Assembly (NCBI GenBank): GCA_029547185.1
Contig: JAKPPU010000004.1
Location: forward strand, 124,001-188,000
Source: Deltaproteobacteria bacterium
GTDB lineage: Bacteria > Desulfobacterota > Desulfomonilia > UBA1062
Length of the DNA: 64,000 nt
Direction: 5' to 3'
The notes beneath the pieces are model-generated. The model was given only the letters and a program-made list of their open reading frames with translations. It was not told the DNA's origin and did not search any database. Below are positions 10,240 to 38,205 of the stretch, piece after piece (the first letter of the stretch is position 1; each line of letters starts with the position of its first letter). The position numbers were made by a program, and so were the translations under genes.

Positions 10240-11406
10240 TCACAACACCTTCTCGAAGATACCCAAAATCTCCGAAGCGTCCATGACAAGCCTCGGGTTG
10301 TTGACGATCGCTCCGTCCGAGAGGCTCATGTCCGCTGCCTTTTCGATATCGGCCTGTTTTACGCCGAACTCGGAGAGCTTCTGCGGATGAGAGATCTTGT
10401 TGCGCGTGAAGTCTCTCATGGCCTCGATGGCGGCCTTTGCAGCCTCGAGATCGTCCATGCCCTTCTCCCGCACGCCGATGGCCTCCGCCATCATGGCGTA
10501 GCCTTCCTGAGCCTCTTCCACATTGAACTCCATGCAGTCCGCCAGCAGGATGCCGTTCGCGATGCCGTGCGGAACATGGGCCACAGCTCCGATGGAATGG
10601 GCCATGGCATGAACGTTTCCCACCATGGCATTCCCGAAGGCCCAGCCGGCTAAGGTTGCTGCGATCTGCACCTGGCCCCGAGCGTGGAGGTCCGATCCGT
10701 TCTCCACGCAGACAGGCAGGTATTTGAACAGGAGCCTGATTGCGTGGAGCGCAAGCCCGTCCGTTACGGGCTCATGCTGCAGCGAATGGAGGGCCTCGAC
10801 GGCGTGGGTCATGGCGTCCATCCCGGTGCTCGCCGTGAGGAGCTTGGGAAGCTTCTCGGTCATCTTCGGGTCGAGGACGGCAAGCCTGGGGGCATTGTAG
10901 TTTTCCACCAGCAGGCGCTTCTGGCCCATCTCTTTGTCCATGATCACGGCAGCGGTCGTGACCTCGCTGCCGGTCCCGGCCGTCGTGGGGATGACGATGT
11001 GAGGCGTCTGGAGCCTGCTCAGGAGCTGGATGCCGTTGAAGTCGCGCAGGGACCCTCCCTCGGTCAGGAGGATGCACATGCCCTTGGCCGTGTCGATGGC
11101 GCTCCCCCCGCCCACGCTGATGACCGTATCAGCGCCGTTCTTGCGGGCGAACTCGGCGCCGGCATCTACCACCTCGACGCCCGTGTCCTGGGGGATGTCG
11201 CTGAATACGCCCACGCACTTGTTTCCGAGGGCCTTGCAGACAGGATCGACGAGCCCTGCACCGAGGACCCCCTTGTCGGTCACCACCACCGCCTTCGTGC
11301 CGCCGAAGGCCCCCATCTCGATCTCGACATCCTTGGCAACACCGGCGCCGAAGACGATTTTCGTGGGCCCGAAATAATTGAACGATAAATCAGAATCATA
11401 TCCCAT
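10240..11406 (-). CDS. Iron-containing alcohol dehydrogenase
   Basis: 388 residues with ribosome site aaaggagat. Group III (Fe-dependent) alcohol dehydrogenase: the nucleotide site GGGSAIDTAKG is near residue 95, TTAGTGSEVT near 140, and the metal-binding helix has HAMAHSIG and HVPHG. These enzymes interconvert alcohols and aldehydes with NAD(P)H. In this operon it probably works on the same aldehyde pool as the upstream AOR, so alcohol can be oxidised to aldehyde and then to acid with ferredoxin as acceptor. The substrate is not deducible. Confidence 0.9.
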   Translation of the reverse strand: MGYDSDLSFNYFGPTKIVFGAGVAKDVEIEMGAFGGTKAVVVTDKGVLGAGLVDPVCKALGNKCVGVFSDIPQDTGVEVVDAGAEFARKNGADTVISVGGGSAIDTAKGMCILLTEGGSLRDFNGIQLLSRLQTPHIVIPTTAGTGSEVTTAAVIMDKEMGQKRLLVENYNAPRLAVLDPKMTEKLPKLLTASTGMDAMTHAVEALHSLQHEPVTDGLALHAIRLLFKYLPVCVENGSDLHARGQVQIAATLAGWAFGNAMVGNVHAMAHSIGAVAHVPHGIANGILLADCMEFNVEEAQEGYAMMAEAIGVREKGMDDLEAAKAAIEAMRDFTRNKISHPQKLSEFGVKQADIEKAADMSLSDGAIVNNPRLVMDASEILGIFEKVL

Positions 11407-11535
11407 AGATATCTCCTTTTCCCCGGACCGTTACCCCACCATGTCCGTAAGGGTCCGTAAGGCCCGGCAGTGCGGTCCGGGATCATGCCGATGACCGCAC
11501 CGGGGCTAAAAAGTTAATGCAGGAACAAGGGGCCT

Positions 11536-11961
11536 CTAATTCGCGTCATCCGGCCATAGGGTATCGACCTTGCCCAGGAGATCGATGACCTTGTTGACGG
11601 TCTTGATGTTTCTCACCACGTAGGGAAGATCGCCCTTCATCTTGAGCTTGCCCTGAAGGAGGGCTTTCGTTGCATCGAGCTCTTTGAAGGCGACCTGCTT
11701 CCAGCGGGCGTAGTCCCCGGTCATGACGAACTTGGCGCTGTCCGCCTTTGCCTTGTCGCACACGACGAACTCGCCCACGTCTCCATGCCAGTAATCCATG
11801 AACAGATAGATCACCTCGGGAACGTTCTTCGACGGGTCCGGATTCACGACCAGGGAAACGCTTCCTTCCCAGTCCTTGGCGATGGTCTTGTATTCCGGAT
11901 CAGCCTGAATAGCCGCCTTGTATGCATCCATCCATTCCTGAGTCATTGCCTTTACAGCCAT
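11536..11961 (-). CDS. SCP2-like protein (copy 2)
   Basis: 141 residues. The pattern is SCP2-like: an N-terminal helix (MTQEWMDAYKAAIQ), a beta sheet core (GSVSLVVNPDP, EFVVCDKAKADSAKFVMTG), then an amphipathic helix and LLQGKLKMKGD. It sits between AOR and the alcohol dehydrogenase on the same strand with short gaps. A role as carrier of a hydrophobic aldehyde or alcohol between the two enzymes is inferred from position only. Confidence 0.72.
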   Translation of the reverse strand: MAVKAMTQEWMDAYKAAIQADPEYKTIAKDWEGSVSLVVNPDPSKNVPEVIYLFMDYWHGDVGEFVVCDKAKADSAKFVMTGDYARWKQVAFKELDATKALLQGKLKMKGDLPYVVRNIKTVNKVIDLLGKVDTLWPDDAN

Positions 11962-11986
11962 TATTCATACCTCCTGATTTTATTTT

Positions 11987-13846
11987 TTATTGGTAAAGTC
12001 TCGCTTTAAGCTCATCGAGTCCGAGCTCGACGAGCTTTTCCTCTTTCGGAAAGCCCCGCTCGTCAAGACCCCTGAACGCGTAGTATTCTCTCAGGAGCAG
12101 CTCCATATCGGGCACCGACCCTGCCGCCCCTCCCTCTTCGAGCGCGGTCATGATCCGCTTGGGGAGGACGTCGTCCTTTTTCGTGATGCCGAGCAGGTTG
12201 TTGAACCCGCGCTTGAGGGTCCAGTCGCGCATGCCCGACTTCATGAGGTCCGCAAAGGTGAAGCCAAAGCCGGTGACGGCATTGAATACCTCCAGGAGCG
12301 TTTCGGGCCTTACGATATAAGCGACGTAGTGACAGATGGAGAGAGAGTTGGCGAGAATGCCGTAATTCTCGGAGTTGTAGACGAGGGCGGCCTTCCCCTC
12401 GCTCGTGGTGCCCTGGTAGTCGTCCTTCATATCGAAGAGCTGCGGCCAGGACGCCATGCCCTGCTCGGTCGCCATGGCGAAATGCTGGAGGTGGCATGCA
12501 CCCCGGTTCGACATCATGTAGGCAAGACCCATGCCGTGGAAGCCGCGGGGGTCGTGCATGGGGGCCTCGAGCCCCTTGACGTGGACCACCGCATCGATGG
12601 CGTCCCCGCCGATCTTCCTGGCGGCCCTCACCGCTCCCTCGGCAAGGATGTCTCCGAAACCTTCCCGGTAGGCGATGGCCTTCACCAGGGCAAGCACGGC
12701 ATCCATGTTCCCCCAGGTGAGCTCGATCCCCTTGAGGTCGTCCCTGCTGATCGTGCCTTTCTCATAGAGCTCCATGGCCATGGCAATGGCGGAGCCGCAG
12801 CTGATGGTGTCCATTCCGTAGCGGTTGCAGAGCTCGTTCGCCTTGATTACGGCGGTCAGGTCGGGGTTCATCATCATGGTGCCGAACACGGCGCAGGTCT
12901 CGTATTCGGGGCCCGGACCTTCTTCGGATGTGTACTTGCCGTCGTCGACCTTGACCACCCGCTTGCAGGCGACGGGGCAATTGACGCAGGCATGCGCCTT
13001 CGTGAGATATTTCTCCCGCATGGTGGGGCCGCTTAAGCTGCTCGCGAGCTCGTACTCTCCTCCCGAGGTCCAGTTCTTCACTGGAACGTCGCCCGTCACC
13101 ATTCCGAGGTCCATGTTCGCGTCCGATCCCATGAGGTGAAGGCCCTCGGTAAGGGCGGAGTCTTTGATCTCCTGCATTGCCTGCTTCTGGGCTGCCTTGA
13201 ACTTCTCCTCGTCGGCCTTGCCGACCTTGCCCGTGCCTTTGACCGTGACGGCCTTGAGGTTTTTCGATCCCATGACCGCGCCCAGGCCTGCCCTGCCGCT
13301 GAAATGCCCCTTGTCGTTGCCGATGGCGGCGATCCTCACGAGGTGCTCGCCTGCCTGGCCTATGACGAGGGCCTTTACAGACTTCTCCTGCTCCTTGATG
13401 AGGTCGGTCGCCTCGTAGATGTCCTTTCCCCAGAGGTGTGAGGCATCGGTCAGCTCGGCCTTCCCGTCGGTTATGGAGAGGCAGACCGGCGAGTCCGCCC
13501 TGCCCTCGATGACGACGCCGTCATATCCTGCCCTCTTGAGGTCCGGCCCGAAGGTCCCCCCGCAGGCCGACTCTGCCCAGATGCCTGTCTGAGGCGACTT
13601 CGAGCAGATCGTGAACCGCGAGGTCCCTGGAAACCCTGTCCCCACGAGGGGGCCTGTCATGATCATGAGAGGGTTTCCCGGAGAGAGCGGATCGACGGTT
13701 AGGTCGTACCTGTCGAGGAAGAGCTTGGCAGCGAGGCAGCTCCCGCCGATATATTTTCCCAATTCCTGACTATCTATGCTGAAGTCCCGGCATTCCCCAG
13801 ACGACAGATTCACCAAGAGAAACTTCCCGGTATATCCTCCTGCCAT
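11987..13846 (-). CDS. aor: Tungsten-dependent aldehyde:ferredoxin oxidoreductase
   Basis: 619 residues with strong ribosome site (aaaggagg). Full-length AOR: N-terminal GYTGKFLLVNLSSG, the TGFPGTSRF and WAESACGGTFGP segments that line the pterin site, a 4Fe-4S motif CVNCPVACKR, and a later cysteine in LSICHY as the fourth ligand. AOR oxidises aldehydes to acids, or reverses this using low-potential ferredoxin. It opens a four-gene leftward operon with two SCP2-like carriers and an iron alcohol dehydrogenase. No MoaD-like companion is visible. Confidence 0.93.
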   Translation of the reverse strand: MAGGYTGKFLLVNLSSGECRDFSIDSQELGKYIGGSCLAAKLFLDRYDLTVDPLSPGNPLMIMTGPLVGTGFPGTSRFTICSKSPQTGIWAESACGGTFGPDLKRAGYDGVVIEGRADSPVCLSITDGKAELTDASHLWGKDIYEATDLIKEQEKSVKALVIGQAGEHLVRIAAIGNDKGHFSGRAGLGAVMGSKNLKAVTVKGTGKVGKADEEKFKAAQKQAMQEIKDSALTEGLHLMGSDANMDLGMVTGDVPVKNWTSGGEYELASSLSGPTMREKYLTKAHACVNCPVACKRVVKVDDGKYTSEEGPGPEYETCAVFGTMMMNPDLTAVIKANELCNRYGMDTISCGSAIAMAMELYEKGTISRDDLKGIELTWGNMDAVLALVKAIAYREGFGDILAEGAVRAARKIGGDAIDAVVHVKGLEAPMHDPRGFHGMGLAYMMSNRGACHLQHFAMATEQGMASWPQLFDMKDDYQGTTSEGKAALVYNSENYGILANSLSICHYVAYIVRPETLLEVFNAVTGFGFTFADLMKSGMRDWTLKRGFNNLLGITKKDDVLPKRIMTALEEGGAAGSVPDMELLLREYYAFRGLDERGFPKEEKLVELGLDELKARLYQ

Positions 13847-29492: not shown

Positions 29493-29502
29493 ACTATATG
29501 GC
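29483..29502. promoter_or_regulatory. Perfect palindrome over -10 and start codon
   Basis: gccatatag-aa-ctatatggc: 9-bp arms with a 2-bp centre. It covers the putative -10 and the ATG at 29498, as an operator for a repressor would. Confidence 0.5.
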
Positions 29503-30391
29503 TTTTCACGCACCGGATCACAAGGAGATCATGAGGGCCATCGGGAGCACCTCGGGGCTCTCGGTGACGATGCAGCGGACGCTCACGCCGAACGACGATT
29601 TCGACCCCATCCCTGTCCCCCACCCCGGGGACTGGCTCAGCGTCCAGCATGAGCCGGGCCAGGGATTCGACGACTATGTGAACTCCCGCCCCAGGCTCCC
29701 GGACAACCGCCGCCGGGTGATCTATCTCACGCCGCTGGGCGAGTTCCCTCCGGAGGCAGGCCCGCCGCTCGGCCTGCTCAGGGAATGCGCAGAGGCGTAC
29801 TTCATGATGGAGGTGCGCGTCACGAAGCCGGTCAAGGCAGAGCATCCCGGCCTCACCACCCGGACCAATCCGGTTACCGGAAACTTCCAGATCCTCACCT
29901 CAGACGTCCTCTCTTTCCTGAAAAGGCGTTTCCCCGCAGACGCATTCTGCGTGCTCGGCATCACCATGGAAGACCTCTATCCCGGCGAGGACTGGAACTT
30001 CGTGTTCGGCCAGGCATCCCTGGATGCAGGCGTCGGGGTCTTCAGCTTTGCGAGGTACGATCCTGCCTTCTTCGGCCATGCACGGAGCGAAGACTTCAGC
30101 CGGCTCATCTGTGCGAGGAGCTGCAAGGTCCTCGTGCACGAAACCTCCCATATGTTCTCGTTACACCACTGCATCTACTTTCACTGTCTCATGAACGGCT
30201 CCAACCATCTTGCCGAAAGCGATGCCCGGCCCATGCACCTCTGCCCGGTATGCCTCCGCAAGCTCCAGTACGCAGCCGGGTTCGACGTCGTGCAGCACTA
30301 CCAGAAGCTCTTCTACTTCTTCAGGAACTCGGGATTCGACCGGGAGGCCAACTGGGTATCCCGAAGGCTCGATCATATCCTCGGGAGCTGA
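29498..30391 (+). CDS. Archaemetzincin-like metalloprotease
   Basis: 297 residues (286 if the ATG at 29531 is used). The zinc site is HETSHMFSLHHC: HExxH plus a third His as in metzincins, followed by C-x4-C-L-M and CPVC with RKL. This cysteine pattern is specific for archaemetzincins, which bind a second structural zinc. Normal family members have Gly at the position here occupied by Ser (MFS). The N-terminal ~130 residues resemble the AMZ lead domain, including VYLTPLGEFPP-type segment. Such proteins are probably aminopeptidases or peptidases of unknown physiological target. It is longer than typical archaeal ones (~180 aa) and closer in length to animal AMZ. Confidence 0.85.
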   Translation: MAFHAPDHKEIMRAIGSTSGLSVTMQRTLTPNDDFDPIPVPHPGDWLSVQHEPGQGFDDYVNSRPRLPDNRRRVIYLTPLGEFPPEAGPPLGLLRECAEAYFMMEVRVTKPVKAEHPGLTTRTNPVTGNFQILTSDVLSFLKRRFPADAFCVLGITMEDLYPGEDWNFVFGQASLDAGVGVFSFARYDPAFFGHARSEDFSRLICARSCKVLVHETSHMFSLHHCIYFHCLMNGSNHLAESDARPMHLCPVCLRKLQYAAGFDVVQHYQKLFYFFRNSGFDREANWVSRRLDHILGS

Positions 30392-32605: not shown

Positions 32606-33820
32606 TCACGTACACACGCGGTTCCTGCCCTGCTTCTTGGCCCGGTAGAGTGCCTTGTCCGCTGCCTTGAGCACGGCCTGAGGGGTGAGATTCCTTTCGC
32701 TGCAGGAAGCGAGGCCGATACTGATGGTCACGGATACGCTCTTCAAGGGGCTCGTGACCGGCTTTATGCTCTCTGGCTTGCGCCTCGGCCTCAGGCGCCT
32801 CCGGATGACGAAGCCGGTGTGCTCGATCTCTCTCCTGAGCTCCTCGAGGTGGTGCTTCGCGTGGTCGGCATACCTTCCCGGGAAGATGACGGTGAACTCC
32901 TCGCCCCCGTAGCGGAACGATTTCCCTCCCCCCGATATGCCGGCAAGCTTCGCAGCGACCATGCGCAGGACCTGGTCTCCCACATCGTGGCCGTAGGTGT
33001 CATTGAACTTCTTGAAGTGATCGATGTCCACCATGGCAAGGGCGTAGTGGCGGCCGAGCTTCAGCAGGTCCTCCTTCAGGGCCCTGCGGGCAGGAAGGCC
33101 GGTTAGTTCGTCGCGGAAGGCCATGGCATGGGAGGCCTCGATGAGCGACACCAGGAGGATGACTCCTGCGAAACAAAAGTAGAGCACGCTTGCATATCCG
33201 GGCCTTGCAGTGGCGAATGCGGCAAAGACCGTGAGGAGGGCCCAGAAGAAGCCGCTCTCCTTGGCACCCTGATCGATCGTGAACCGTACCCCCAGAACGA
33301 TGAAGGCAATGAGGAAGGAGGCTATCGCGGGCTGGGCGAGTGTAAGATGGTCAGCCGGACCGAGCGGAAGGACTTCAAGCGTCAGATAATGGAGCACACG
33401 CAGGGAGTCGTGCCTGATGAGGCCTGCTATGAGAACGGGCTGGACAGCGAACAGGGCCATCCTCACCATGCCGTGGACCGTGAAGATCCCCCTTTCCTTT
33501 GCCAGGCTCAGCAGGAGGAAGTTGAGCGGCACGAGGAATGCCGCGGCATGGAAGACAGCCTGTCCCCTCGTGTCCATCAGAGAGAATTCCTTTGCCCACA
33601 GGAGGAGAGCCCGGTCCGTAACCGCGAGGATGAGCACGGCGAACACGAGCGAGCTCCGGTTGAACCTCCACCCGATGAGCACGGCGGACAGGTAGACGAC
33701 GTAAGGCGCGATGCCTGTGATCGCCTGGATCGTGGGCTTGAAGGCGTTGAGGCTGATCAGGAGAACGGCAGCGAAAAACAGGACACCTCCTGGTATGAAA
33801 AACGAAACCCACCTTTTCAT
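32606..33820 (-). CDS. Membrane diguanylate cyclase (GGDEF)
   Basis: 404 residues from ATG 33820. The first ~230 residues have about seven hydrophobic segments, a membrane sensor resembling 7TM-type domains. The GGDEF domain follows: DELTGLPARRAL, MVDIDHFKKFNDTYGHDVGD, signature RYGGEEF, and a C-terminal AADKALYRAKKQGRNRV. The GGEEF signature is intact, so it should make cyclic di-GMP from GTP. I see no RxxD inhibitory site at the usual place before GGEEF. An insertion of ~25 basic residues (RRRLRPRRKPE) interrupts the domain after GGEEF. Confidence 0.9.
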   Translation of the reverse strand: MKRWVSFFIPGGVLFFAAVLLISLNAFKPTIQAITGIAPYVVYLSAVLIGWRFNRSSLVFAVLILAVTDRALLLWAKEFSLMDTRGQAVFHAAAFLVPLNFLLLSLAKERGIFTVHGMVRMALFAVQPVLIAGLIRHDSLRVLHYLTLEVLPLGPADHLTLAQPAIASFLIAFIVLGVRFTIDQGAKESGFFWALLTVFAAFATARPGYASVLYFCFAGVILLVSLIEASHAMAFRDELTGLPARRALKEDLLKLGRHYALAMVDIDHFKKFNDTYGHDVGDQVLRMVAAKLAGISGGGKSFRYGGEEFTVIFPGRYADHAKHHLEELRREIEHTGFVIRRRLRPRRKPESIKPVTSPLKSVSVTISIGLASCSERNLTPQAVLKAADKALYRAKKQGRNRVCT

Positions 33821-34105
33821 ACCGCCCAAGCGAACCTCCCTGGCCTGCCTTTGCCCGACACGCATGTGTCCCTGGTTATCTTATGAATAATTACGACCAT
33901 ACGGCTTCAGAACTTGAAGGTAAATGCGGCAGCCGCCCGCCGGGCTCGTAGGGAGATTGTTCCGGGCTGATACGGGGATGGATTACTCAAGGAGAGAGCG
34001 GTCAGGAGGGGATGGGGCGAAAGATCATTTCCCTGCGATGCCTCGCAATGCAGAAACATCCACCTCCTTCTCTGAAGAGATAGACGACCATTGCCCGGTT
34101 TGCCC

Positions 34106-34133
34106 TTGACAAGCTCATCTTTAGTTGTACAAT
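34106..34133 (+). promoter_or_regulatory. Sigma70-type promoter of the marR-hgcAB operon
   Basis: TTGACA at 34106-34111 is a perfect -35; TACAAT at 34128-34133 follows after 16 bp. The marR ATG (34140) is 6 bp past the -10, so the message should start at or next to the A of ATG. Confidence 0.7.
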
Positions 34134-34139
34134 ACAACT
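34123..34139. promoter_or_regulatory. Palindromic operator overlapping the -10 of marR-hgcAB
   Basis: agttgta-caa-tacaact: perfect 7-bp arms with a 3-bp centre, ending one base before the ATG. MarR proteins bind palindromes of this size as dimers, so this is probably the autoregulatory site. Confidence 0.65.
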
Positions 34140-34631
34140 ATGAAGATCGAAATACAGGAGAGGGACCGCGAAATACTCACCATCATCATGGAGCTTTCGA
34201 AGGCAGTCCGCTGCTGCCGCCAGGATGATGTGTTCTGTGAGGACGTGACCTTCGCCCAGTTCGCCGTCCTCGATGCCGTTGCAGGGAGCAGGTCCCTGAA
34301 CATGGCAAACCTGCACGATGTGCTCTCCGTCAACAAAAGCACGACGACCCGTCTCGTTGCACCGCTCATCAAAAAGAACCTCCTCATCCGGGAGAAGGCG
34401 GAGCACGATTCCCGAGCCGCGACGCTGAGATTGACGAAGCAGGGGAAAGAGGTCCACGAGAAGGTCTGGAAATGTCTCCTGTCCTTTGTCCGGGCCGTTC
34501 AGGAGGAAATCCCGGAAGGGAAGCGGGATTCTGCTCTGGCAGGAGCCGCCACGTTTCTCGCCGCACTGCGGAATGTTTCCAGCATGCGATGCGTCGGGGA
34601 ATCGGACGCTTGCAGCTGCAGGTGTGCGTAA
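34140..34631 (+). CDS. MarR-family regulator, cysteine-rich
   Basis: 163 residues. The winged helix-turn-helix is MarR-like: FAQFAVLDAVAGSRSLNMANL, a recognition-helix region VNKSTTTRLVAPLIKKNLLIR and the wing EHDSRAATLRLTKQGK. Cysteines are unusually many: C25-C26, C33, one in the long helix, and a tail MRCVGESDACSCRCA. The tail could bind thiophilic metals (Hg, As) and switch DNA binding; that is inference. The start at ATG 34140 has no ribosome site and lies right against the promoter. hgcA follows after 39 bp. Confidence 0.85.
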   Translation: MKIEIQERDREILTIIMELSKAVRCCRQDDVFCEDVTFAQFAVLDAVAGSRSLNMANLHDVLSVNKSTTTRLVAPLIKKNLLIREKAEHDSRAATLRLTKQGKEVHEKVWKCLLSFVRAVQEEIPEGKRDSALAGAATFLAALRNVSSMRCVGESDACSCRCA

Positions 34632-34670
34632 TCGCCCGGGAAGCTCATACGAATCGAAGAGAGGAATACC

Positions 34671-35828
34671 ATGACGGAAGACTGTTGCTGCGGAAGCAGG
34701 CCTCAGACAAAGACGTTCTTGCCCATGGCATCTGCCTCGGCCTGCTGCTCACAAGAGGCGGATAACCCACGGCCTCCCCGCCTCGACCAGCCGTTCGTGG
34801 AGGGCGCGTGGGAAGGCCCATGGGGAAAAGCCCCTCAGGTGTCTTCGATATTGAGGAGAGAAGACCATTGGGGAACTGTCAAGGCCCGCTGGGGATTTCG
34901 AAGGATGAGCTATACCGTGGATCCGGGCCTGTATGCCCTCGGCAAGCCCGACGACAGCTCGCCGGTGCTCGTCACCGCCAACTACAAGATGAGCTTCGAC
35001 AGGCTCAGGGAGGCCCTTCCCGAAAGGGATGCATGGATCCTCGTCCTCGATACGAAGGGAGTCAATGTCTGGTGCGCTGCCGGGAAGGGGACGTTCGGCA
35101 CCGGGGAGCTTCTCCGCCGCATGGAGGCGAGCCGTCTGAAGGAGGTCGTGAAGCACCGCAGCCTCATCCTGCCCCAGCTCGGGGCCCCCGGCGTGGAGGC
35201 ACATTTCGTGAAGGCAATCTCAGGATTCAGGGTCCTCTACGGGCCGGTCAGTGCACGGGATCTGCCGGCCTACCTCGACGCCGGAATGAAGGCCACGCCG
35301 GAGATGAGACGAAAGAATTTCCCGGTGGGCGAACGGGCCGCGCTCATCCCCATAGAGCTTGTCGCCGCCCTCAAGGCTGCATTCATCGCCATTCCCGTCC
35401 TGTTTTTCATAAGCGCATTCACGGGCAGGGAGGGGCTGCTCGGGAATATGAGCACCGATGGCGTGTTCTCCATCGCCTCGATCCTCGGGGCAGTGATCGC
35501 CGGGACAGTGCTTTTCCCTCTCCTTCTCCCGTATCTTCCCGGCCGGGCCTTTTCCACGAAAGGGTTCATCATCGGCATCCTCACGGCCGGGGTTCTGCTC
35601 TTTCTGTGGGGGTACGATCTGCATTCACCGGGCGGCCTGATCGGCGCAATCGCATGGCTTCTCATGATCTCCTCCGTGAGTGCATGCCTTGCCATGAACT
35701 TCACCGGCTCTTCGACGTATACATCGCTCTCCGGGGTGAAACGGGAGATGCGGTGGGCCCTGCCCTTCGAGATCGGAACGGCCCTTTCCGGGTTCGGTCT
35801 CTGGATTGTATCGAGATTCATGGTATAG
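34671..35828 (+). CDS. hgcA: Mercury methylation corrinoid protein HgcA
   Basis: 385 residues with ribosome site gagagg. The defining cap-helix motif NVWCAAGKG is present at residues 132-140; C135 would coordinate the cobalt of the corrinoid. The corrinoid-binding domain (about 80-220) is followed by five transmembrane helices (for example IPVLFFISAFTG, IIGILTAGVLLFLWG, AWLLMISSVSACLAM). This is the two-part layout unique to HgcA, which transfers a methyl group to Hg(II) together with HgcB. The N-terminal ~80 residues are longer than in the well-studied orthologue (338 aa) and start with CCC (5-7) and CC (25-26). Upstream is the Cys-rich MarR, downstream hgcB. Confidence 0.93.
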   Translation: MTEDCCCGSRPQTKTFLPMASASACCSQEADNPRPPRLDQPFVEGAWEGPWGKAPQVSSILRREDHWGTVKARWGFRRMSYTVDPGLYALGKPDDSSPVLVTANYKMSFDRLREALPERDAWILVLDTKGVNVWCAAGKGTFGTGELLRRMEASRLKEVVKHRSLILPQLGAPGVEAHFVKAISGFRVLYGPVSARDLPAYLDAGMKATPEMRRKNFPVGERAALIPIELVAALKAAFIAIPVLFFISAFTGREGLLGNMSTDGVFSIASILGAVIAGTVLFPLLLPYLPGRAFSTKGFIIGILTAGVLLFLWGYDLHSPGGLIGAIAWLLMISSVSACLAMNFTGSSTYTSLSGVKREMRWALPFEIGTALSGFGLWIVSRFMV

Positions 35829-35837
35829 GAGCCGGCC

Positions 35838-36164
35838 ATGCGCAAGCTCGTTTATCTGAAAAATGTCGTTACACTGAAGATCGATGAAGCAAAGTGCACG
35901 GGCTGCGGGATGTGTCTCGACGTCTGCCCCCGCGAGGTTCTCAAGATGAACGGCAGGCACGTGCAGATAGCAGACAGGGATTCCTGCATGGAGTGCGGGG
36001 CATGCAGCCGCAACTGCCCCGCCGGCGCAATCTTCGTGGAGGCGGGCGTCGGATGCGCTGCCGCGGTGATCAACGGCATGCTGGGCCGCAAGGATTCAGC
36101 GTGCTGCTGCTCGGTTGATCCGAAAACGTCCTCTCCAAACAAATCCCCTGGATCGTGCTGCTGA
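35838..36164 (+). CDS. hgcB: Mercury methylation ferredoxin HgcB
   Basis: 108 residues starting 9 bp after hgcA. Two 4Fe-4S motifs, CTGCGMCLDVCP (from C20) and CMECGACSRNCP (from C50), are followed by the conserved lone cysteine in GVGCAAA (C73). The C-terminal end is SCC, the vicinal cysteine pair known for HgcB. An added ACCC stretch lies at 88-91. HgcB reduces the HgcA corrinoid and its cysteines are thought to deliver Hg(II). All residues known to matter are present, so the pair looks functional. Confidence 0.93.
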   Translation: MRKLVYLKNVVTLKIDEAKCTGCGMCLDVCPREVLKMNGRHVQIADRDSCMECGACSRNCPAGAIFVEAGVGCAAAVINGMLGRKDSACCCSVDPKTSSPNKSPGSCC

Positions 36165-36177
36165 AAGACAGGGGCGA

Positions 36178-37143
36178 ATGACTTTGGACGTATTCTTTTA
36201 CGAGGCTTTCCTGGAAGAGGTCGAGGCGCTCAAGCGGCATCTCCCTTCAAGCATCCATGCCGGATTCACGCCTTCAACGATTCAGGAGTCTTCCCATGGA
36301 GAGCCCCCCTGCCCTTTCATCAGCATCCGGACCCAGTCCGTCATCCCGGATGCATGGACTGGCCGGCTCACCGGGATCCTCACGCGCAGCACCGGATTCG
36401 ATCACATAAAGCGGTTCCGCGAAAAGACCGGCAGTGATGTCCCTGCCGGATACCTCCCCCTGTACTGCAGCCGCTCGGTGGCGGAGCAGGCCCTCATGAT
36501 GTGGATTGCCCTCCTCCGGAAGCTGCCGAGGCAGACGGAGCAGTTCGCACGCTTCGACCGGGACGGGCTCACAGGCTCCGAGTGCCGTGAAAAGACCCTG
36601 CTCGTAGCGGGCGTCGGCAACATCGGATCAGATATCTATCGCATAGGCCTTGGCCTCGGCATGATACCTCTCGGGGTCGACATCGCCCGCAAGCACCCGG
36701 ACGTCCGGTACGTATCGATCGACGAGGGAATCCGGCATGCCGATGTCATTGTCTGCGCCATGAACCTCACACCCGACAACCGGGGGTACTTCAATCGCGG
36801 CCTCCTGAAAAAGGCAAAGCCGGGGGCCATTTTCGTGAACATTGCCAGGGGTGAGCTCTCACCCGTGAGGGATCTCCTCCACCTCCTCGACACGAACCAT
36901 CTCGGCGGCGTGGGCCTCGACGTCTACGAAAACGAGAGCGATCTCGGCGTGAGTCTGCGCCAGGGCATCCCGCACGATGATGAAGACGTGCAGGCATGCA
37001 TCGAGCTCTCGAAGCGCAGCAACGCGATCCTCACCCCCCACAACGCCTTCAACACCCACGAGGCCCTCGAAAGAAAGGCAGGCCAGTCCATCGACCAGGT
37101 CGTCCACTTCCTCACGAAGAAGACCTTCATCTGGAAGGTGTAG
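36178..37143 (+). CDS. D-isomer-specific 2-hydroxyacid dehydrogenase
   Basis: 321 residues from ATG 36178 with ribosome site aggggcg, 13 bp after hgcB and on the same strand, so it is probably in the operon. The NAD site is VAGVGNIGSDIYRIG; the catalytic set is R (NIARGELS), E (VYENE) and H (TPHNAFNT). The family includes D-lactate and phosphoglycerate dehydrogenases. The DE of the YENE segment and the two-domain order are like D-lactate dehydrogenase. The link to mercury methylation is positional only; it may supply or use NADH or a hydroxyacid. Confidence 0.85.
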   Translation: MTLDVFFYEAFLEEVEALKRHLPSSIHAGFTPSTIQESSHGEPPCPFISIRTQSVIPDAWTGRLTGILTRSTGFDHIKRFREKTGSDVPAGYLPLYCSRSVAEQALMMWIALLRKLPRQTEQFARFDRDGLTGSECREKTLLVAGVGNIGSDIYRIGLGLGMIPLGVDIARKHPDVRYVSIDEGIRHADVIVCAMNLTPDNRGYFNRGLLKKAKPGAIFVNIARGELSPVRDLLHLLDTNHLGGVGLDVYENESDLGVSLRQGIPHDDEDVQACIELSKRSNAILTPHNAFNTHEALERKAGQSIDQVVHFLTKKTFIWKV

Positions 37144-37194: not shown

Positions 37195-38205
37195 TTATCT
37201 CTCCGCATACCCCGATGATATCTGGTAGATGATCTTGTCGTAGAGAAAGATGATGCGGTTGTTGAGCTCAAGGGTGATGTAGATTTCGAGGGGTGAAGAG
37301 AGGATCTTCTTTCTGATGAGATAGACCCAGATGCTCTTGCGGCTGAGCGCCATGGCATTGAAGACCTCCGGGAAACCTATGTTCAAGTGCTTCAACTCCC
37401 TGCCTGCATCCCTGAACTTGAGAAAGTCCCCGGCGTTTCCCTTGCCCTGGAGGCTGCTCCGGATGCTTTGGAGCACCTGCCTGTTCACCCCGCTTAAGGT
37501 GTCCATGTGGGGTGACAGCACCGGAATCCTCGATTTCACCTCCCGGGACCACTCGCCCATGATCTCGTCCGCGCTCACCTCGATGATCTTCACGAGGATG
37601 TTCGATAGGAAGGTCTTCTGTTCCTCGAGGTCAGTCGAGACCTCCTCTACGGCCTGCCCTTCGGGGAAGAGCTTTCGGTAGGAGTCGATCATGGCCCAGG
37701 TGTCCCGGTAGAAATCGGTATAGATCTTCACTGCCTTGTCGTTGGAAGACCAGGCGAGCGGCGGCAGGCTGTCGATGGGGAAAAACCTCGCGGCGATGGC
37801 GTCGTCTCCGGGGGCAGGCGATCCTCCTGTGTGCCTGACCTCGTAGGTGACGATGGCGAGGCTTCCGTAGTAGTAGTTGTCCACGGTGTCGACATCCACG
37901 AGACGCACGACCTCGCCCTCGATCCCTGCCTCCTCCTTGAGCTCCCGGAGCGCAGCGTCCTTCACCTCTTCGTCCGCCTCGGCAAACCCGATGGGAAGGC
38001 ACCACATGCCCTTGTAGGGGTCCTTGCCCCGCTGGACGAGCAGGAGCTGCCTGTCCTCGTTGACCACGATGCAGCTCGCGACCGGAAGGGGGTTTTCATA
38101 GAAGACATGGCTGCATTCCATGCAGAAATCCCGTATCTTTCTCTCCATGTGCCTCTGAATGACGGGATTGCCGCAATACGGGCAATAGATCCTCTGCTTC
38201 CTCAT
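37195..38205 (-). CDS. Nudix hydrolase with zinc ribbon and RsbR-N-like C-terminal domain
   Basis: 336 residues. It starts with a zinc ribbon (CPYCG, FCMEC), then a Nudix domain with a complete box GFAEADEEVKDAALRELKEEAG (shown here in outline: G-x5-E-x7-REL-x2-EE). This half resembles NADH pyrophosphatase NudC-like proteins. From ~165 on there is a different all-helical domain (LSNILVKIIEVSADEIMGEW, near the end FLYDKIIYQISSGY), similar to the N-terminal helical domain of RsbR/RsbRD regulators. Nudix plus this helical domain is unusual. The methyltransferase gene lies 12 bp upstream on the same strand. Confidence 0.8.
   Translation of the reverse strand: MRKQRIYCPYCGNPVIQRHMERKIRDFCMECSHVFYENPLPVASCIVVNEDRQLLLVQRGKDPYKGMWCLPIGFAEADEEVKDAALRELKEEAGIEGEVVRLVDVDTVDNYYYGSLAIVTYEVRHTGGSPAPGDDAIAARFFPIDSLPPLAWSSNDKAVKIYTDFYRDTWAMIDSYRKLFPEGQAVEEVSTDLEEQKTFLSNILVKIIEVSADEIMGEWSREVKSRIPVLSPHMDTLSGVNRQVLQSIRSSLQGKGNAGDFLKFRDAGRELKHLNIGFPEVFNAMALSRKSIWVYLIRKKILSSPLEIYITLELNNRIIFLYDKIIYQISSGYAER

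Follow-up and report, generated by a model that had tools for sequence, protein, structure and literature searches.

Gene content of the locus

We analyzed a mercury-methylation (hgcAB) locus in a stretch of 64,000 nucleotides (nt) of contig JAKPPU010000004.1 from a Deltaproteobacteria bacterium; the whole stretch is called the window, and coordinates refer to it unless a genome or locus label is given. The source assembly measures 4.19 Mb in 215 contigs and is 96% complete and 5.3% contaminated. Four genes, encoding a MarR-type regulator, HgcA, HgcB, and a dehydrogenase, follow each other on the plus strand with intergenic gaps of 39, 9, and 13 nt, in agreement with a preliminary description of the locus. 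The comparisons reported here link marR with hgcAB and suggest that the dehydrogenase is a bystander. The features are as follows.

34106-34139, plus strand: promoter and predicted MarR operator (-35 TTGACA at 34106-34111, 16-nt spacer, -10 TACAAT at 34128-34133)
34123-34139: palindrome AGTTGTACAATACAACT (AGTTGTA-N3-TACAACT), the predicted operator, covering the -10 of the TTGACA promoter and followed at once by the marR ATG at 34140
34140-34631, plus strand: marR, Cys-rich MarR-type winged-helix regulator of 163 aa (Pfam MarR_2/MarR; AlphaFold2 model)
34671-35828, plus strand: hgcA, corrinoid methyltransferase with membrane domain, 385 aa (NF040863 score; HgcA tree)
35064-35090, plus strand: HgcA cap-helix motif NVWCAAGKG (residues 132-140, with Cys135)
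35838-36164, plus strand: hgcB, 2x[4Fe-4S] ferredoxin with C73 and C107-C108, 108 aa (NF040864; Cys positions)
36178-37143, plus strand: D-2-hydroxyacid dehydrogenase family gene, probably an older resident of the locus, 13 nt behind hgcB (PF02826; orthologues; synteny)

The locus had been described as beginning at 34106, which is the first base of the -35 hexamer TTGACA and not a gene start. A longer, TTG-started open reading frame (ORF) from 34125 begins inside the palindromic promoter element, and marR therefore probably starts at the ATG at 34140.

HgcA and HgcB

The hgcAB pair is complete, as had been proposed. HgcA scores 452 bits against the NCBIfam equivalog model NF040863 (cut-off 275) and stays below the cut-off of the fused HgcAB-like model NF043039 (199 against 285 bits), and HgcB reaches 118.5 bits with NF040864 (cut-off 99). 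The NVWCAAGKG cap helix is present from residue 132 on and agrees with the pattern N(V/I)WC(A/G)AGK; its Cys135 is invariant in an alignment of 19 rows. HgcB contains the two 4Fe-4S motifs (CX2CX2CX3CP; C20/23/26/30 and C50/53/56/60), the C73, and the terminal C107-C108 that had been noted before, plus C89-C91. The scores above cut-off, the cap-helix Cys, the two 4Fe-4S motifs, C73, and the terminal CC are shared with canonical hgcAB. Five membrane helices had been claimed for HgcA: four segments are clear (Kyte-Doolittle peaks above 1.5 at about 230-257, 268-286, 299-317, and 323-341), and the C-terminal fifth is weak and under the threshold of 1.5, leaving five helices plausible but unproven.

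Unlike canonical HgcA, the window protein has an N-terminal extension with CCC at residues 5-7 and CC at residues 25-26. Such N-terminal CC or CxC clusters are enriched in MarR-linked HgcA (26 of 38, against 17 of 66 other HgcA; 104 of the 109 rows of the locus set defined below), with counts that are approximate because start codons were guessed. The Cys-rich extension (34671-34750) has an LPMA motif that is also seen in the family members L041 and L115, with FPMA in L114.

The HgcA tree comprises 115 rows and was built by a quick method with Shimodaira-Hasegawa-like approximate likelihood ratio test (SH-aLRT) supports and no bootstrap; support is weak for 52 of its 112 inner branches, and none of its rows was marked as an experimentally tested methylator. 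The window HgcA and those of the three other hgcA-positive members of its family form one set (SH-aLRT 96), nested in a 29-row group (SH-aLRT 90) of Syntrophaceae, Smithellaceae, and unplaced deltaproteobacterial genomes. The preliminary description had proposed a comparison with paralogues, and this places the window protein with HgcA: four fused HgcAB-like paralogues lie apart on a separate branch (SH-aLRT 100). A fifth paralogue, L219, falls among HgcA; only 25% filled and with a branch length of 10, it is surely misplaced. Judged by eye, the HgcA-like paralogues L215 (886-2646) and L219 (1182-2828) are fusions in which a methyltransferase-like part precedes and a ferredoxin-like part follows the HgcA-like one, and one of the two belongs to the window's own family (G008).

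Over the model cut-off, hgcA was found in three of eight genomes of the genus and four of 24 of the family; among 395 genomes sampled from the phylum, 117 have a match at E 1e-60 and 114 one over the cut-off. Because hgcAB is complete and has its own regulator, and because HgcA falls outside the paralogue clade, the source strain is a candidate mercury methylator.

A MarR-type regulator linked to hgcA

The regulator belongs to the MarR family by its Pfam scores (PF12802, 36.1 bits against a cut-off of 27; PF01047, 31.4 against 24.6), and none of its seven families listed at E 0.01 is ArsR (PF01022, HTH_5). AlphaFold2 yields a confident winged-helix monomer (mean predicted local distance difference test, pLDDT, of 87) with an order of elements that fits the fold, and the nearest solved sequences are other MarR proteins, e.g. 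2a61.

That marR is the locus' own regulator, as the preliminary description held, is borne out by its recurrence beside hgcA. We compared 99 loci collected by HgcA likeness (window included) and ten fetched for a MarR gene next to hgcA (L221-L230), 109 in all; L116 and L124 were dropped as duplicates, and L215-L220 (paralogues and the corrinoid iron-sulfur protein, CFeSP, outgroup) stand outside this set. Upstream of hgcA, a MarR homologue was counted for 30 of the 99, or 31 with L050, which was counted as lacking one because an over-long HgcA frame put its MarR past the distance limit. With the ten others the figure becomes 40 of 109, which is inflated by the way these ten were chosen, so that 30 of 99 is the fairer count. 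Within the 29-row HgcA group MarR was counted upstream in 26 rows (L221, L227, and L228, fetched for MarR, among them); the remaining three are L050, L056 without a counted MarR, and the misplaced paralogue L219. A Pfam scan of 98 upstream ORFs (97 of the 130 picked, and the window's) gave MarR_2 in 35, the ArsR domain HTH_5 in 15, and MazE in 4, numbers that do not stand for natural frequencies, because the matches may overlap and the loci were selected for their similarity to the window HgcA.

A search that started from MarR points to the same linkage. Across 99 genomes, the window's own included, the six best matches (at least 146 bits) all adjoin hgcA, the next scores 96 bits, and ordinary MarRs score 69 at most; the closest forms (above 140 bits) were seen only beside hgcA. 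A match at E 1e-20 or better occurs in 23 of the 395 phylum genomes, and 20 of these carry hgcA. At 90 bits or more, matches are present in 21 genomes, in 18 of them directly upstream of hgcA: 17 by their coordinates, which put them no more than about 310 nt before the hgcA match, and that of G189 directly before a cut hgcA. The other three are from G343 (L211, 94 bits), a MarR without cysteines and with a long upstream frame of oxidoreductase-like letters; from G116 (L203, 122 bits), which has the first Cys, no CC tail, and no hgcA beside it; and from G075, described below. From the upstream homologues in 30 of 99 loci, and from the closest forms having been seen beside hgcA only, we conclude that marR belongs with hgcAB.

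The hgcA-linked regulators also share a cysteine signature. The window MarR has C33, C112, and the tail cysteines C158, C160, and C162; all 40 hgcA-linked MarRs have Cys33, 33 have Cys112, and 35 end in a CC or CxC tail (30, 28, and 27, respectively, of the 30 collected by HgcA likeness). In 22 control MarRs, from other contigs than hgcA or from genomes without it (23 control loci were taken and 22 gave a MarR frame), Cys33 was found once and neither Cys112 nor the tail at all.

A CC-tailed MarR is also encoded in L171 (G075, contig C167, 3-1260), directly upstream of an arsenite methyltransferase (arsM)-like gene, in a genome that has no hgcA match at E 1e-3. The arsM-like frame, only part of which was scanned, scores 248 bits to PRK11873 (cut-off 263). 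This pairing may reflect a wider metalloid role of this type of MarR.

Promoter and predicted operator

The palindrome over the -10 recurs together with marR. In the window's own genome RGTTGTANNNTACAAC occurs at one place (listed on both strands, being a palindrome). GTTGYANNNTACAAC is present in 29 of the 40 marR-hgcA loci and the looser TTGYANNNTACAA in 32 of the 40, against two of the 69 others, namely L050, which by a separate check has MarR, and L053; the promoter layout is alike in most marR-hgcA loci. The spacing between the -10 and the ATG suggests that the marR mRNA is probably leaderless and starts at or next to 34140.

Five operator-like places were also seen within a 57-kb stretch of G318 (contig C1, about 1339500-1396800), an hgcA-positive genome, away from its hgcA. 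They could be the regulon of a related regulator or a chance cluster.

Probable insertion of the cassette beside the dehydrogenase

The surroundings of the cassette were compared with those in related genomes, using the following features.

32606-33865, minus strand: GGDEF-domain gene, left neighbor of the putative insertion site (PF00990; synteny)
33930-36170, plus strand: putatively inserted promoter-marR-hgcA-hgcB block, approximate, its ends set by eye from the relatives' intergenic sequences
37195-38205, minus strand: NUDIX gene, right of the dehydrogenase in the conserved locus (PF00293; synteny)

Eight relatives (G001, G003, G004, G005, G006, G013, G019, and G023) lack hgcAB at this place: their GGDEF gene directly adjoins the dehydrogenase, after which come NUDIX, methyltransferase, and Fe-S genes as in the window. 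Five of these are of the same genus, including the hgcA-positive G003, which holds its cassette elsewhere, and three are from two other genera. The locus is cut by a contig end in G002, only a fragment is present in G018, and in G015 the orthologue has other surroundings. In the four hgcA-positive family members marR-hgcA-hgcB is the shared block around hgcA. Beyond it the stretches read contain a single match, of 39%, which pairs one gene of L114 with one of L041 from the other side of hgcA; for L115 they cover no more than about 1.5 kb, on one flank. The simplest explanation is a cassette that moved in one piece and, in the window, entered the gap between GGDEF gene and dehydrogenase, where it replaced a leader that a comparison by eye with L154 and L155 puts at about 50-60 nt.

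A comparison of 33861-34110 with 36081-36260 gave no shared direct repeat of more than 8 nt, and a search of these stretches for signs of an insertion sequence or target duplication at the cassette ends yielded an 8-nt match at most. A misbinned contig is unlikely, as the genes on either side of the cassette agree in order and strand with those of same-genus genomes. A second rearrangement affects the left side: the AMP-binding gene is next to the GGDEF gene in the window, and the two are about 3-6 kb apart in the relatives that were found to have both.

The dehydrogenase scores 117.9 bits against PF02826 (cut-off 25.1) and has the contexts NIARGE, DVYENE, and TPHNAF, which we take to hold the family's catalytic R, E, and H. 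Orthologues with 56-69% identity are present in ten other family genomes (G001-G006, G013, G015, G019, G023), only two of which, G003 and G015, carry hgcA over the cut-off, there on different contigs. A scan of 78 downstream neighbors of hgcAB (77 of 80, and the window's) gave 11 families that occur at least twice; PF02826 is absent from these, from which we deduce that it lies beside hgcAB in the window only (E 1e-5). Because the gene adjoins the same GGDEF gene without hgcAB in the eight relatives, it does not belong with the cassette; it is probably an older resident and a bystander outside the mercury system. As a methylation gene it was rejected on synteny, on its orthologues without hgcAB, and on the occurrence of PF02826 in the window alone. 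Only 13 nt separate it from hgcB, so co-transcription is possible, and this would be a side effect of where the cassette was inserted.

The operon arrangement of the preliminary description, and the synteny comparison it had suggested, thus hold for one half of the locus: marR is kept with hgcA and is common in the HgcA group, whereas the dehydrogenase is not conserved with hgcAB, either in the eight relatives or among the 78 downstream neighbors.

A model for the switch and its alternatives

In this protein family HgcA transfers a methyl group from its corrinoid to Hg(II), and the corrinoid is reduced again by HgcB; what triggers hgcAB is an open question in methylmercury formation. For the window, a likely account is that a marR-hgcA-hgcB cassette was inserted between the GGDEF gene and the dehydrogenase gene and that a cysteine-sensing MarR represses its own transcription until a thiol-binding ion releases it. 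The 17-bp palindrome that covers the -10 would be the most likely binding site of MarR, which from there would keep its own promoter shut and marR-hgcA-hgcB untranscribed. Ions with an affinity for thiols (As(III), Hg(II), or similar) may then bind Cys33, Cys112, and the Cys-rich tail and free the promoter for an mRNA that probably begins, leaderless, at the marR ATG; HgcA would methylate Hg(II) and HgcB re-reduce the corrinoid, as in the family. The dehydrogenase, its old leader replaced, is probably now read from the marR promoter and would be dispensable for methylation. Metalloid sensing is hinted at by the CC-tailed MarR beside arsM, by the arsenic-responsive ArsR reported for strain ND132, and by the cysteine pattern, and the window MarR is probably the sensor of a metal.

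Several points weigh against this account. The MarR profile was built from hgcA-linked rows and so favors hgcA-adjacent matches; 69 of the 99 HgcA-collected loci have no counted MarR (68 without L050), and 99 of the 117 hgcA-positive phylum genomes lack an adjacent match of at least 90 bits. MarR and HgcA distances correlate (Mantel r 0.93), which plain vertical descent predicts likewise, and this test cannot separate it from co-transfer. As to the operator, L053 has the pattern near its hgcA start without a counted MarR, and eight of the 40 marR-hgcA loci lack the loose TTGYANNNTACAA (two, L034 and L036, carry a variant that differs by one base, a contig end truncates L035, and five have distant MarRs). 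RGTTGYANNNTACAAC, the pattern with Y, occurs in 48 of the 395 genomes, in nine of which it is seen next to the cassette, and its backwards control in about 34, counted by eye; the pattern alone is therefore weak and not diagnostic. The Cys-rich tail is disordered in the AlphaFold2 model, and the cysteines could serve redox sensing. An arsM-like frame lies near only one (L171) of the eight loci with that MarR in the 395 genomes, for which reason an ArsM-linked MarR was rejected as a general class and kept as a hint only. Finally, autorepression, metal release, leaderless start, read-through, and methylation are all inferred.

MarR family members with sensing cysteines are known, among them the thiol switches OhrR and SarZ, and a redox or organic-ligand sensor of that kind would tie hgcAB to oxidative or sulfide stress in place of metals. 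Such a sensor would agree with the invariance of Cys33 in 40 rows, and close cysteine pairs suit disulfides too, but the presence of several cysteines and a CC/CxC tail fits soft-metal binding, one relative adjoins arsM, and arsenic regulation through ArsR is reported for hgcAB of ND132 (cited in PMC10349881); we consider this alternative rather unlikely. The output of the switch could also be missing, with a HgcA/HgcB pair that is non-methylating or decayed. Some hgcAB carriers have been reported as non-methylating, and sequence alone cannot show the activity; however, the intact key residues, the equivalog scores above cut-off, and the position of HgcA apart from the well-supported branch of four fused paralogues make a defective pair very improbable.

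The history of the locus can be read in the opposite direction as well, with hgcAB ancestral at the address between GGDEF gene and dehydrogenase and lost from the relatives. The HgcA proteins of the four hgcA-positive family members are monophyletic in the tree, and the 66% identity of HgcA to that of G003 is within the range of the neighboring genes (44-84% to G003), as this would predict. We nevertheless regard loss without insertion as improbable, since the two genes are adjacent in five same-genus genomes, the hgcA-positive G003 among them, and in three genomes of two other genera, and since the other three hgcA-positive members hold the cassette in other surroundings. A single functional operon of four genes, in which the dehydrogenase serves methylation, e.g. 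by feeding methyl groups or reducing power, would explain the shared strand and the 13-nt gap, which make co-transcription likely, and the dehydrogenase does have its catalytic motif contexts. Against it stand the orthologues in genomes without hgcA over the cut-off, or on other contigs than hgcA in G003 and G015, the eight relatives with this locus and no hgcAB, and the PF02826 protein that is deduced to be unique to the window among 78 downstream neighbors; such an operon is strongly disfavored and, in our view, extremely improbable.

Relation to known systems

ArsR-type arsenic regulation of the ND132 hgcAB is cited in PMC10349881, PMC13362967, and PMC12953829. Both systems place a small regulator directly upstream; that of ND132 is co-transcribed and responds to a metalloid, which is suspected in the window, and the window regulator differs in being of the MarR family, with its own cysteine pattern and palindromic operator. 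According to PMC12953829, the arsR genes of its hgcA-carrying genomes are not close to hgcAB, and alternative regulation is suggested. For two genomes a MarR gene upstream of hgcA has been published (PMC10349881); it lies next to hgcA as in the window and is compared by description only, as the passage names it with no cysteine signature or operator. The conserved putative regulator upstream of hgcAB in 112 genomes (PMC7438021) resembles the window MarR in position and wide spread, its family not being stated in the passages available. The arrangement had been described as non-standard, which applies to the dehydrogenase beside hgcAB, seen in the window only, and not to a MarR upstream, which is common in the HgcA group and published for two genomes. 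In the literature on hgcAB regulation, synteny, and MarR thiol sensing, whose coverage largely left out subscription papers, we found no description of the MarR cysteine signature or operator, and the passages available of PMC7438021, PMC10349881, PMC10504345, PMC13362967, PMC12953829, PMC12997803, PMC9948709, and PMC11653729 contain neither.

We tentatively propose a more general form of the model, in which marR-hgcA-hgcB is a self-contained, relocating cassette whose dedicated cysteine-sensing MarR acts through the -10 operator of a leaderless promoter and silences the methylation genes as long as no soft metal or metalloid is present. If this is true, mercury methylation in a large HgcA group of Syntrophales/Desulfomonilia type would be an inducible trait with a switch that can be read from sequence, separate from the ArsR switch of ND132. 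hgcA abundance alone is often a poor predictor of methylmercury, and the signature of gene plus operator could predict which environmental methylators are under MarR control. A dedicated MarR, a defined predicted operator, and an invariant cysteine make the switch directly testable. The dehydrogenase shows that a neighbor of hgcAB can be accidental, which calls for caution with guilt-by-association readings.

Other features of the window

An archaemetzincin-like peptidase M54 protein is encoded at 29498-30391 and is also found near the locus in L155, L157, and L158. At 10240-13846, on the minus strand, genes for an aldehyde ferredoxin oxidoreductase and an iron-containing alcohol dehydrogenase lie close together.

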